This document shows, one piece after another, positions 43,300 to 49,575 of a stretch of DNA of 64,000 nucleotides. The position numbers were made by a program, and so were the translations under genes. This stretch comes from Shinella sp. WSJ-2 (lineage in GTDB: Bacteria; Pseudomonadota; Alphaproteobacteria; Rhizobiales; Rhizobiaceae). Under the pieces are notes generated by a model. It had not been told where the DNA came from, searched no databases, and was given only the letters and a program-made list of their open reading frames with translations. The first letter of the stretch is position 1. Every line of letters starts with the position of its first letter. The DNA lies in assembly GCF_003432075.1 (NCBI RefSeq), contig NZ_QWBU01000001.1:434001-498000 (forward strand), written 5' to 3'.

Positions 43300-44178
43300 G
43301 TGAGCGAAATCCGCCTCTACATCACCACCACCGAGAAGCGCGCCGATATCGCGCTCTCGCTGATGACCGACGCTTTCGAGGAAGAAGGCTACGCCATCGC
43401 GACGATGGAGATCGACGAGAAGAACGATATCTGGGAAGCCTCAGTCTACATGTTCCGTGTCGACGAGGCCGAGATCACCGAGCGCTTCGCGGCCCTGCTT
43501 GCCGACGATTTCCCGGATGCGACGATCCAACGCGAGGAGTTGCCGGATATCGACTGGATCGCCAAGTCGCTCGAAGGCCTGAAGCCCGTGCGCGCCGGCC
43601 GTTTCGTCGTGCATGGCTCACACGATCGCGGTACCGCTCGCCCCGGCGAAATCGCCATCGAGATCGATGCCGGCCAGGCCTTCGGCACCGGCCACCACGG
43701 AACGACAGCCGGCTGCCTGGAGGTGATCAACAGCGTCATGCGGTCCCGCAGAGTGAGGCGCGTGCTTGACCTCGGGACAGGCAGCGGCGTCCTTGCCATC
43801 GCCGCGCGAAAACTGTCGCCGGCCAAGGTGCTGGCGACCGACATCGACCCGATCGCCACGCGCGTCGCGCGTGAAAACGTCCGCATCAACGGCATCGCCT
43901 CGGGCATTGCGCTGGAAACCGCGCCTGGCTTCCACTCCACCGCCTTCGGCCGCCATGGCCCCTTCGACCTCATCATCGCCAATATCCTGGCCCGCCCGCT
44001 GATGCGCATGGCGCCGCAGCTTGCTGCACAGCTCACGCCGGGCGGTGACGTCATCCTGTCGGGTATTCTTGCCTCGCAGCGCTGGAAGGTACTGGCCGCC
44101 TACAATGGCGCCGGCCTCAGCCATATGCGCACCATCTGGCGTGAAGGCTGGGTAACGATCCATCTCGCCAAGCGCTGA
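43300..44178 (+). CDS. prmA: Ribosomal protein L11 methyltransferase
   Basis: 292 aa, start GTG at 43300. The N-terminal L11-binding domain is followed by the SAM fold: FGTGHHGTTAGCLEV, VLDLGTGSGVLAIAA and LIIANILARPL (the NILA-type catalytic-site motif). It trimethylates several amino groups of L11. It lies 68 nt after the SCO gene. Confidence 0.93.
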   Translation: MSEIRLYITTTEKRADIALSLMTDAFEEEGYAIATMEIDEKNDIWEASVYMFRVDEAEITERFAALLADDFPDATIQREELPDIDWIAKSLEGLKPVRAGRFVVHGSHDRGTARPGEIAIEIDAGQAFGTGHHGTTAGCLEVINSVMRSRRVRRVLDLGTGSGVLAIAARKLSPAKVLATDIDPIATRVARENVRINGIASGIALETAPGFHSTAFGRHGPFDLIIANILARPLMRMAPQLAAQLTPGGDVILSGILASQRWKVLAAYNGAGLSHMRTIWREGWVTIHLAKR

Positions 44179-44190
44179 GGTCGATCTTCC

Positions 44191-44220
44191 GTGATCCCCG
44201 TGTCCGAGACCGGGGATCAC
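44191..44220 (+). terminator. Inverted repeat after prmA
   Basis: GTGATCCCCG and CGGGGATCAC form a perfect 10-bp stem with a 10-nt loop, 12 nt after the prmA stop. There is no T run, so it may be a Rho-type or repeat-derived terminator. Confidence 0.6.
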
Positions 44221-44257
44221 GCAGCGGAATAACGCAGAGTCACGAGAAAAGAAAAAG

Positions 44258-44405
44258 GCGGTGCCAGAGGCACCGCCTATGGGCCGGCAAGCCGACCTGT
44301 CCGCGAGCTTGAGGAGGAGGAGTGCTCAAGCGGACCTATGTGTTCCGAACGCCTTCCCGGAGGAGGGAGGAGGAGTGACCAGAAAGACGTCTGATCGGAA
44401 CACCT
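44258..44405 (-). ncRNA. Alpha-r14 (NfeR1-like) small RNA
   Basis: The leftward transcript folds into three parts. First, a long hairpin closed by GTGTTCCGA/TCGGAACAC whose loop carries CUCCUCCUCCCUCCUCC. Second, a stem closed by GUCCGC/GCGGAC and CUUGAG/CUCAAG with loop CUCCUCCU. Third, a terminator GGCGGTGCC-TCT-GGCACCGCC followed by TTTTTC. Exposed anti-Shine-Dalgarno loops define the alpha-r14 family of rhizobial trans-acting riboregulators, including S. meliloti NfeR1. The 5' end is approximate. Confidence 0.8.
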
Positions 44406-44407
44406 AG

Positions 44408-44721
44408 CATTTCGCCTTTCGGCGTTTCATATGCGATACGAAGGACTGGAGGAAGTTTCGCTTCGTTTCGCTTGAAGCGCGTTTTAAGTTCGCTTCGTTG
44501 GCGCCGCTTATAATCGATTCAGAAAATCGCGAAAGTGCTGATGCGGCATGGGTGCCATGCATAAGGTGCATAAGTCCAATATGAGACCTCTTAAGACCAC
44601 CTGACGGTGTTGCCTCGCTTATCGCCATCGGCTCGCAAGGTAGCCCGGCCTCTCGCCTTTGACGCGACCCCACGATGGGCTAGATTGCCGTCACGATTCA
44701 TCGCCTGAGCGGAAGCATCCC
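44408..44721. other. Gene-free stretch between the sRNA and the aminopeptidase gene
   Basis: No convincing coding frame. The part next to 44408 must hold the sRNA promoter (leftward), and the part before 44722 the aminopeptidase promoter (rightward). A short hairpin CGCC-TTT-GGCG (44413-44424) and repeats of TTCGCTTCGTTTCGCTT (44456-44472) are visible. Confidence 0.6.
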
Positions 44722-46557
44722 ATGTTCCAGAGTTTTGACGTCACTTCCACGCCCCAGTACGGCCGCGAACGAGCGGATGCGCTGCGCGCCTCCTTCGATG
44801 CGCTGGGCATCGACGGCTTCCTCGTGCCGCGCGCCGATGAATATCAGGGTGAATATGTGCCGGCTTCGGCGGAGCGTCTGTCTTGGCTGACGGGCTTCAC
44901 CGGCTCGGCGGGCGTGGCGCTCGTCATGCGCGGCCAGGCCGTGGTCTTCGTCGATGGCCGCTATGTCACGCAGCTCGCCGAACAGGTGGATGGCAGCGTC
45001 TATACCGGCGGCGATCTCGTCGGCGAGCCGCCGCATCTCTGGCTGCAGAACCATGGTCCCAAGGGCTTCCGGCTCGGCATCGATCCGTGGCTGCACACGG
45101 CGGCCGAAGTGCGCCGTCTGGAAAAGGCGCTCGCCACGCTCGGCGGCAACCTTGTCTTTTTGCCCTACAACCCGCTCGACAAGGCCTGGACGAACCGCCC
45201 AGCCGAACCGCTCGGCCGCGTCACCATCCAGGCCATCGACCATGCCGGCGAACTCGCCAGGGATAAGCTGGTCAAAATGGCGGAAGCGACGGCGAAGGCC
45301 GGCGCGGACGCACTGGCGGTCACCGACCCCTCCTCCATCGCCTGGATCTTCAACATCCGCGGCAGTGACGTGCCGCACACGCCGCATCCGCTGGCCCGCG
45401 CCATCATTCCGGCAGACGGCCGCCCCCTGCTCTTCCTCGACAAGCGCAAGACCGGCATCGAGCCCGAGGCCTATCTCACCCAGCTCGCCGATCTTCTGCC
45501 ACCGGCCGATTTCGACAACCGCATCGCTGCCCTCGCCGCCGAAGGCAAGCGAATCCTGATCGACCCGGATCAGGCCCCCTTCGCGCTCGGAGAGATCGTC
45601 CGCAGCAAGGGCGGCACGCTGGTGGAAGCCGCCGACCCGGCCCGCCTGCCCCGCGCCTGCAAGAACAGCGTCGAGCTGCAAGGCTCCGCCCGCGCCCATC
45701 TTCAGGATGGTGCCGCCATGGTGGAGTTCCTCGCCTGGCTCGACGGCACCACGCCCGGCAGCCAGACGGAAATCACCGTCACGAAGAAGCTCGAGGAGGT
45801 GCGCCGCAGCGTCGGCGAGCGCCAGCAGAACCCGCTGAAGGATGTCTCCTTCGATTCGATTGCCGGTGCCGGTGCCCACGCCGCCATCATGCATTACCGC
45901 GTGACGACCGACACGGATGCTACCATCGAGCCGGGCACGATGTTCCTCATCGATTCCGGCGCGCAATATATCAACGGCACGACCGACATTACCCGCACGG
46001 TCGCCATCGGTACCGTACCGGAAGAGCAGAAGCGCTTTTTCACGCTGGTGCTGAAGGGCATGATCGGCATCAGCCTTGCCCGCTTCCCCAAGGGCACGCG
46101 CGGCTGCGACCTCGATCCGCTGGCCCGCATCGCGCTGTGGAAAGCCGGCGCCGATTTCGCGCATGGCACCGGCCATGGCGTCGGCTCCTATCTCTCGGTG
46201 CATGAAGGGCCGCAACGCATCTCACGGCTATCGACGCAGGAACTGCTGCCCGGCATGATCCTGTCGAACGAACCGGGCTATTATCGCCCCGGCGCCTTCG
46301 GCATCCGCGTCGAGAACCTTGTGCATGTCCTGCCGGCCACTGCCGTTGAAGGTGGTGATATCGACATGCTCGGCTTCGAGACGCTGACCTTCTGCCCGAT
46401 CGACCGCCGCCTTGTCGTTGCAAACCTGCTGACGGACGAGGAACTGATCTGGCTCAACGCCTATCATGCCGAGACCAACGAAAAGATCGCGCCGCTCCTT
46501 TCGGACGACGCGACCAAATCCTGGCTGGCGAAGGCGACGGCTCCGATCAGCCGGTAA
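44722..46557 (+). CDS. Aminopeptidase P family protein (peptidase M24)
   Basis: 611 aa from the ATG at 44722; the frame extends slightly upstream without a better start. It has the three-domain plan of large aminopeptidase P: two creatinase-like N-terminal domains (WLTGFTGSAG and FNIRGSDVPHTP) and a pita-bread domain. The metal ligands are visible as the Asp in LIDSGAQYINGTTDITRT, His in HGTGHGVGS and Glu in LSNEPGYY and ENL. It removes the N-terminal residue before proline. The stop overlaps the convergent azlD by 11 bp. Confidence 0.93.
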   Translation: MFQSFDVTSTPQYGRERADALRASFDALGIDGFLVPRADEYQGEYVPASAERLSWLTGFTGSAGVALVMRGQAVVFVDGRYVTQLAEQVDGSVYTGGDLVGEPPHLWLQNHGPKGFRLGIDPWLHTAAEVRRLEKALATLGGNLVFLPYNPLDKAWTNRPAEPLGRVTIQAIDHAGELARDKLVKMAEATAKAGADALAVTDPSSIAWIFNIRGSDVPHTPHPLARAIIPADGRPLLFLDKRKTGIEPEAYLTQLADLLPPADFDNRIAALAAEGKRILIDPDQAPFALGEIVRSKGGTLVEAADPARLPRACKNSVELQGSARAHLQDGAAMVEFLAWLDGTTPGSQTEITVTKKLEEVRRSVGERQQNPLKDVSFDSIAGAGAHAAIMHYRVTTDTDATIEPGTMFLIDSGAQYINGTTDITRTVAIGTVPEEQKRFFTLVLKGMIGISLARFPKGTRGCDLDPLARIALWKAGADFAHGTGHGVGSYLSVHEGPQRISRLSTQELLPGMILSNEPGYYRPGAFGIRVENLVHVLPATAVEGGDIDMLGFETLTFCPIDRRLVVANLLTDEELIWLNAYHAETNEKIAPLLSDDATKSWLAKATAPISR

Positions 46558-48711: not shown

Positions 48712-49575
48712 TCACGCGACCTTCTTATTTGGGCTCAGCACCCGGTTATCGAGGAGCTTCGTGCTTCCAAAACGCACGAAAAGCAACAAAAGGACCGGCC
48801 CGTCGCCGACCGTATCGATCTCGGCCAGCGTTTCCGGATCCCTGACGGCGACGACCTCGGGCTTGGCCAGAGGCTCGCTGCGGAGGAAGGTGGTGACCTC
48901 CGCTTCGATTGATTTTGCATCGGTTTCGCCCGCCGCGATCAGACGTTCGGCCTCTTCCAGCGCGCGCGGCACGATGGCGGCGGCGGCGCGCTCTTCCGGC
49001 GAGAGATAGACATTGCGCGACGAACAGGCGAGGCCATCAGCCTCGCGTACCGTCGGCACGCCGATCACCTCGACGGGCTGGGCGAGATCGGCAACCATGC
49101 GGCGGATGATGGTGAGTTGCTGGAAATCCTTCTCGCCGAAATAGGCGCGGTCGGGACCAGCAATGTTGAAAAGCTTGGTCACGACCGTTGCGACACCGGC
49201 AAAGTGGCCGGGGCGCACGGAGCCTTCAAGCTCCGCGCCGAGCTTCGGCACGTCCACGACGGTCTCCATCGGCCGCGGATACATGTCCGCGACGCCGGGC
49301 GCGAAAAGATAGTGCACGCCCTCCGCCTCCAGCATCGCCTGGTCGCGTGCGAGATCGCGCGGATAACGCGCAAGATCCTCGTTCTGGCCGAATTGCAGCG
49401 GATTGACGAAAATGGTGGCGACGACGATGTCGTTGTCGGCGCGGGCGCGGCGCGCAAGCTCCATATGGCCGACATGAAGATAGCCCATGGTGGGCACGAG
49501 ACCGATCGAGCGGCCGTCAAGTCGATGCGGCGCCAGAGCGGCGCGCAAATCCGCGATGGTGGTGAAGGTCTTCAT
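48712..49575 (-). CDS. panC: Pantothenate synthetase
   Basis: 287 aa from the ATG at 49575 with AAGGAGGAG upstream; an in-frame start at 49620 lacks one. Nucleotidyltransferase motif [14 protein letters not shown] (His residues of the HxGH site), [17 protein letters not shown], and the later KMSKS-like [12 protein letters not shown]. It joins pantoate and beta-alanine with ATP. Confidence 0.95.

Follow-up and report, generated by a model that had tools for sequence, protein, structure and literature searches.

A putative small RNA gene with anti-Shine-Dalgarno loops in the prmA-pepP interval of Shinella, probably of alpha-r14/cuckoo descent

Introduction

The Cuckoo RNA family, reportedly described by Reinkensmeier and Giegerich in 2015, consists of RNAs with two to four adjacent hairpins, each of which carries CCUCCUCCC in its loop. 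The family is cited in PMC10253847, PMC10746234 and PMC7143759, and the cuckoo-type RNAs SmelA075, SmelA099 and SmelC201 are reported to have similar anti-Shine-Dalgarno (anti-SD) hairpins in variable number, with three- and four-hairpin forms (PMC3927594). SmelC201, from Sinorhizobium meliloti, is described only as two similar hairpins (PMC3927594). Hfq-independent action at the start regions of mRNAs is among the traits of the alpha-r14 (ar14) family. RNAs of this family have three hairpins, each carrying CCUCCUCCC (PMC10746234), and the anti-SD motifs of NfeR1 of S. meliloti silence mRNAs at translation start regions (PMC10746234, PMC7143759). The NfeR1 promoter contains TGCA-N6-GCAT at -72 to -60, where its activator LsrB binds (PMC10746234); LsrB also activates AbcR1 (PMC8844928), and VtlR, its counterpart in Brucella, activates AbcR2 and DUF1127 genes (PMC12595884). 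At the CIN1 locus of Rhodobacter sphaeroides, ccaF1-CcsR1-4, a DUF1127 gene precedes anti-SD sRNAs that share one terminator (PMC10253847).

The stepwise origin of trans-acting sRNAs is rarely caught. At the site described here, one fixed position holds a protein gene only, a protein gene plus an RNA, or an RNA only, in genera that can be cultured, and the redox regulator LsrB would meet DUF1127-like small proteins and RNAs with anti-SD loops at a single locus. The RNA is a conserved Rhizobiaceae sRNA that is missed at Rfam cut-offs, no Rfam family reaching its cut-off anywhere in the 64-kb stretch of Shinella DNA that we analyzed (the window) or in ten relatives scanned. We think it likely that the Shinella locus is a gene for an LsrB-activated, trans-acting anti-SD sRNA of alpha-r14/cuckoo descent, a reading for which structure, covariation, promoter conservation, synteny and the tree of the site provide support at the level of sequence.

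The RNA is flanked by two plus-strand ORFs that were used as synteny probes. We take the convergent neighbor (43300..44178, from the ORF list) to be prmA, for ribosomal protein L11 methyltransferase, and the divergent one (44722..46557) to be pepP, for aminopeptidase P. The pepP ORF is listed from a TTG at 44659, the ATG at 44722 was used, and a promoter-like site of pepP itself lies at 44659-44686.

RNA structure and extent

The anti-SD RNA, initially placed at 44258-44405 on the minus strand, has four hairpins. Hairpin 1 (44340..44403) presents the loop CUCCUCCUCCCUCCUCC at 44375-44359 (read as CTCCTCCTCCCTCCTCC), and hairpin 2 (44299..44336) the loop CUCCUCCUCCUC at 44322-44311 (read as CTCCTCCTCCTC), in which the anti-SD run is CCUCCUCCU. 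Hairpin 2 is separated from the terminator by a small GC hairpin (44282..44297), recognized from fold and covariation and missing from the preliminary description. The intrinsic terminator (44251..44278), AGGCGGTGCCTCTGGCACCGCCT followed by TTTTTC, has the loop UCU and no anti-SD. In a terminator scan this hairpin scored as terminator-like on the minus strand only, and it is the sole such site on that strand in 44179-44725; another lies on the plus strand at 44459.

Folding of 44250-44406 on the minus strand gave -74.8 kcal/mol and a z-score of -6.17 (200 shuffles), with both anti-SD runs in open loops, while the plus strand of the same stretch folded more poorly (z -3.61) and the predicted primary transcript of about 250 nt reached z -6.61. 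The preliminary description had read two anti-SD loops in strong stems and a terminator with U residues on the minus strand, which the fold and the terminator scan bear out. The second loop is longer than the CUCCUCCU that it gave. Its long first loop is real and lineage-limited, with exactly this loop in 15 of 108 loci found with the hairpin-2 pattern CCGCTYGAGCRCTCCTCCTCC (hereafter pattern loci). The start, judged from the promoter, is very probably near 44500 and not at 44405.

The pairing of anti-SD runs is rare. There are 46 copies of CTCCTCCTCC in the 5.14 Mb Shinella genome, and two copies on the same strand less than 60 nt apart are found at four places, the prmA-pepP RNA and three loci assigned to ar14 by Rfam, against about 0.01 such pairs expected by chance. 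Covariation was assessed in an alignment of 25 loci, from which the 34-pair consensus structure was itself derived; 97.9% of its cells are paired and 14 of the 34 pairs change on both sides, a count reached in none of 500 shuffles, with 1-3 pairs in slid controls. Changes on both sides affect six of the seven pairs of the outer stem of hairpin 1 and five of seven in the small GC hairpin. The stem of hairpin 2 is nearly invariant, eight of its ten pairs never varying in 25 rows of which 24 were chosen by this very stretch. Where the consensus has G-U pairs, they agree with a transcript read from the minus strand. A two-hairpin anti-SD RNA with a terminator is far beyond chance.

Promoter and leader

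Upstream of the hairpins, on the minus strand, lies an LsrB-type box at 44546..44570, TGCACCTTATGCAT continuing as GGCACCCATGC (whole TGCACCTTATGCATGGCACCCATGC; plus strand GCATGGGTGCCAT), followed by the core promoter CTTTCG-N17-TATAAG at 44507..44535. A sigma-70 promoter with an LsrB motif, a trait of ar14, is present in the Shinella sequence, and the RNA start is predicted at about 44500 because the spacing from box to start was taken as in the NfeR1 promoter. From the positions of promoter and terminator, the primary transcript would span 44252..44500, about 250 nt. On this evidence the gene very probably starts near 44500 from an NfeR1-like promoter, which adds a leader of 95 nt.

The promoter is conserved. 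TGCR-N6-GCAT occurs within 420 nt upstream in 107 of the 108 pattern loci, and the published form TGCA-N6-GCAT is unaltered in 59 of the 108; over 0.86 Mb, the strands concerned contain another 25 matches to TGCR-N6-GCAT. A fuller expression for the box, tuned on the 108 loci themselves, is found in 105 of them and nowhere in 1.67 Mb elsewhere. TATANN follows 58-60 nt after the start of the box in all 105 box-bearing loci; TATA is present in 0.9% of random 13-nt slots. Among 30 loci retrieved with the covariance model instead of the pattern, some of them from genomes already counted, 28 also have TGCR-N6-GCAT. One ar14 gene of the Shinella genome has the same box at a nearly equal distance.

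The leader folds into hairpins, one of which (44433..44471, minus strand) has CUUCCUCC in its loop at 44455-44448 and is a possible third anti-SD element. CCTCC is present in the leader of 19 of 21 Shinella genomes, and full CTCCTCCTCCC in two. At two Shinella loci (L018 and L019) the loop of the leader hairpin has the complete CUCCUCCUCCC; 17 others have CCUCC versions, which are absent in two.

Relation to alpha-r14 and other known RNAs

The best Rfam match of the Shinella RNA is ar14 (RF02344), over its full length, at 18.6 bits (E 0.29) and below the gathering cut-off of 58.8; the copy of this locus in S. meliloti scores 15.3 bits. The search with the alpha-r14 family model, which the preliminary description had named beforehand as its refuter, thus returned no match at cut-off. 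Matches of the Shinella RNA to suhB, mir-59, flavi_FSE and sot0042 were far below the respective Rfam cut-offs and were set aside. Rfam CcsR1 (RF02791; cut-off 65.3) has no match in 44180-44720 at E up to 10.

Like NfeR1, the Shinella RNA has anti-SD loops, an intrinsic terminator and an LsrB-type box 60-72 nt before its (here predicted) start. It differs in having two loops instead of three in 44258-44405, one of them imperfect, and an additional hairpin. Its leader is also longer, its place between prmA and pepP is fixed, and its score is far below the cut-off. Of the three ar14 hairpins with CCUCCUCCC, Shinella has that motif in hairpin 1, CCUCCUCCU in hairpin 2 and only UCU in the terminator loop. 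Among the pattern loci, CCUCCUCCC is found in hairpin 1 of 96 of 108; hairpin 2 has CCUCCUCCU in 93, CCUCCUCCA in 14 and CCUCCUCCC in one; and CCTCC occurs anywhere further 3' in only 11. The loops, offered in the preliminary description as the family hallmark, fail to separate ar14 from the wider cuckoo/CcsR kind, and one of the two holds CCUCCUCCC.

Intermediates are found at the same site. The RNA of locus L200 (genome G125), in the same orientation and with prmA adjoining and pepP unmatched in its stretch, scores 60.0 bits against ar14 and so exceeds the cut-off (29.5 bits against CcsR1, cut-off 65.3), and those of L199 (G157), L198 (G034) and L192 (G103) score 53.1, 52.8 and 39.3 bits; all four have an anti-SD run in the terminator loop. 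The covariance model R1, built from 25 loci that include the Shinella window locus, scores two of the three true ar14 genes of the Shinella genome at only 16.0 and 15.2 bits, with the third unlisted. Sequence models alone therefore fail to join the two RNAs, and the link to ar14 rests on the shared site and the intermediates. Because that site holds three-loop forms elsewhere, one of them above the ar14 cut-off, we read the Shinella RNA as a probable descendant of the alpha-r14/cuckoo kind, diverged but kept in synteny, and do not place it in the family. The label alpha-r14-like stands in this sense, the kind being supported by L200 and membership failing at 18.6 against 58.8 bits.

That the gene is simply a canonical alpha-r14 sRNA, a further NfeR1 copy acting on identical targets, seems unlikely to us. 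Loop kind and promoter geometry are shared, ar14 is the best Rfam match over the full length and an orthologue at the site (L200) passes the cut-off; against this stand the score of the Shinella RNA itself, 18.6 against 58.8 bits, the lack of CCUCCUCCC in hairpin 2 of 107 of 108 loci, a Shinella terminator without anti-SD and the presence of an extra hairpin. The genome moreover already holds three true ar14 genes elsewhere, at 84-122 bits, and hairpin 2 is nearly invariant, whereas ar14 stems are described as hypervariable.

With the cuckoo family the RNA shares similar anti-SD hairpins and several genes per genome, given the four places with paired anti-SD runs. Its hairpin count fits that family, but its second loop differs, CCUCCUCCC being exact in one of two. 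SmelC201 may be the S. meliloti orthologue of the prmA-pepP RNA. No prmA-pepP sRNA turned up by name in the main text of the literature searched, which included PMC2780559, PMC2873474 and PMC3927594. Three named RNAs were considered and rejected by their place or loop: EcpR1 lies downstream of divK-pleD and has the loop UCCGCCGCAUCU, GspR sits between SMc03844 and SMc03845, and PmaR is reportedly without an anti-SD region.

Synteny and distribution

Both prmA and pepP flank the RNA in 100 of the 108 pattern loci (tblastn), with pepP 0.6-1.6 kb from the RNA in some. In seven others the missing neighbor lies beyond the end of the stretch, and L128 has pepP, with prmA unmatched in the 687 nt available. 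Among the 80 of the 108 matches for which genera were listed, 72 belong to Rhizobium, Sinorhizobium/Ensifer, Shinella or Pararhizobium and eight to "Rhizobiales bacterium".

The covariance model finds the RNA in 33 of 151 Rhizobiaceae genomes and 23 of the 106 genera sampled, with 56 bits or more in 30 of these genomes and 25-37 bits in the other three. In the model search of 150 genomes of the order, five matched, three of them outside Rhizobiaceae (25-28 bits), and no convincing copy of the prmA-pepP RNA was found outside the family. The model matches L201 and L202 have no anti-SD run in the part read, and L203 is an ar14 (62.2 bits) whose 3-kb stretch lacks both prmA and pepP. Within the window, a match at 49022-49142 on the minus strand (17.6 bits) reads as coding sequence, presumably panC as identified by eye, and was discarded as a chance match. 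Two further sRNA loci, L191 and L196, have pepP but lack both a full LsrB-type box and, within the stretch, a match to prmA; in L191 the terminator stem is directly followed by an anti-SD run.

The small protein gene and the history of the site

In 41 of the 105 box-bearing loci the interval from promoter to hairpin 1 contains an ORF of 46-59 aa, preceded by a ribosome-binding site (at L070 our script chose an overlapping longer frame over the conserved one). Values of pN/pS of 0.30 (276 pairs) and 0.22 (78 pairs), from two groups picked by motif, indicate that the small protein is under purifying selection. It resembles DUF1127 by profile comparison (90.5%, E 1.4e-6); among the 15 members scanned none matches a Pfam or NCBIfam family at cut-off, and one matches DUF1127 at E 0.06. 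The gene is absent from the Shinella window. CIN1, where a small DUF1127-type gene is likewise followed by anti-SD sRNAs, is the closest known arrangement, but it has an RpoHI/RpoHII promoter in place of the LsrB-type box, and in Shinella the protein is lost; the gene that relatives have at this site is related to DUF1127 by profile only.

Searched with a profile of the protein, 61 of 101 family genomes have a related gene, all but one of them a single copy; a wider profile gives matches in 60 of 150 genomes of the order. Of the 26 family protein loci that were read, out of these 61 genomes, 25 are flanked by both prmA and pepP, and 22 of those 25 have no paired anti-SD runs (21 have none and one a single run). 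At the order level both neighbors are present in nine of 11 loci, and paired anti-SD runs near the gene on the same strand in none of the 11. Since such protein-only loci share the neighbors without the paired runs, the protein gene is very probably older at this site than the RNA. At this site other families of the order (loci L270-L279) have a conserved gene for a DUF1127-like protein of about 57 aa; the members that were scanned match no Pfam or NCBIfam model at cut-off. The LsrB-type box is present in all 50 loci with protein plus RNA against five of 22 with protein only, and in 3.9% of random windows (P 0.001); with five of 22, an ancestral LsrB promoter is only partly supported.

For a tree of the site, 148 of 165 loci were kept, both flanks being needed (98 of the 108 pattern loci among them): 76 RNA-only, 50 with both and 22 protein-only; merging intergenic stretches of identical sequence leaves 71, 45 and 22. 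Four of these (L145, L189, L190 and L245), protein-only by strict loop count, were relabeled by hand as protein plus RNA. Trees were built from 73 (quick) and 43 (careful) hand-chosen loci of the 124 distinct ones, in a sample of loci with at least one of the two features, whose protein-only loci came from profile matches; the root was not inferred by the program. On the PrmA+PepP tree of 43 loci, RNA presence needs one change (97% of 200 bootstrap trees; branch 97/74, the SH-aLRT of the branch separating RNA-bearing loci being only 74) and protein presence five, and the starred branches force at least three changes for the RNA-only label. The quick tree agrees. With other families' loci lacking the RNA, the simplest reading is that the RNA was gained once in the 3' region of the small-protein gene and that the protein was lost several times, including in Shinella.

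The Shinella leader aligns with the 5' untranslated region and first codons of the intact gene of L102, the nearest protein-bearing relative of the window locus, with the start codon lost. A fuller scenario, in which the anti-SD hairpins arose once at the 3' region of an ancient DUF1127-like gene, the gene was lost at least three times with promoter and RNA retained, and the remnant of its start in Shinella became a third anti-SD hairpin, complete in two species, is one that we hold tentatively, as slightly short of an even chance. The same remnant, with the protein gene gone from the window, could suggest that the RNA is a decaying 3' untranslated region, transcribed and without a job; this is very improbable, for the protein-less lineages keep loops, stems and promoter, with compensatory changes.

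Proposed mechanism and targets

For the Shinella RNA we infer transcription, LsrB binding, exact transcript ends, targets and repression as follows. From the LsrB-type activator site and sigma-70 promoter (44507-44570), transcription of the minus strand would yield an RNA of about 250 nt that ends at 44251; two of its hairpins, in Shinella perhaps three, would expose anti-SD runs in open loops. By pairing with purine-rich ribosome-binding sites, the loops would cover the Shine-Dalgarno sequences of numerous mRNAs, so that the 30S subunit is kept away and translation falls, the mode of action reported for NfeR1. An RNA of alpha-r14/cuckoo type would have arisen in the 3' region of the older DUF1127-like gene; in Shinella, Sinorhizobium and Pararhizobium the protein gene would since have gone, the RNA keeping promoter and terminator. 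As LsrB activates AbcR1, and VtlR activates AbcR2 and DUF1127 genes, the prmA-pepP site would fit one redox-linked circuit.

Apart from the locus itself, no site in the genome matches the 17-nt complement of the first loop at fewer than two mismatches. Up to three mismatches there are 19 sites including the locus itself, against 32 for the reversed control. A single dedicated long target of this loop is therefore unlikely, judging by these counts; binding to several registers of ribosome-binding sites, as first proposed, is possible. GGAGGAGG stands ahead of ATG more often than the reversed motif does (63 sites against 13). Of 30 of these 63 sites that were read, only two passed the test for a likely gene start, and the list led to no target.

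In nearly all loci read, the RNA has prmA and pepP as neighbors and converges with prmA, which would also suit a mainly cis-acting role, as antisense to the prmA 3' untranslated region or as a transcriptional neighbor of pepP. We give this little credence, since the RNA ends short of the prmA stop codon in the window and the conserved parts are the anti-SD loops. Least probable of all is a plus-strand feature such as a structure or terminator in the prmA 3' untranslated region, for although the hairpins are palindromic and prmA ends about 75 nt before them, the U-run, the promoter and box, the consensus G-U pairs and the better fold (z -6.2 against -3.6) all belong to the minus strand.

Elsewhere in the Shinella genome, three of the six DUF1127 genes adjoin true ar14 genes. 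At G000:C27:46860-48128 (L055, L165, L167) a tandem pair of ar14 genes precedes two DUF1127 genes of like orientation; an LsrB-type box lies ahead of the second ar14 gene, about as far away as in NfeR1. At G000:C29:52576-53057 (L056, L166) a DUF1127 gene and the ar14 gene immediately downstream of it form a pair that resembles CIN1.
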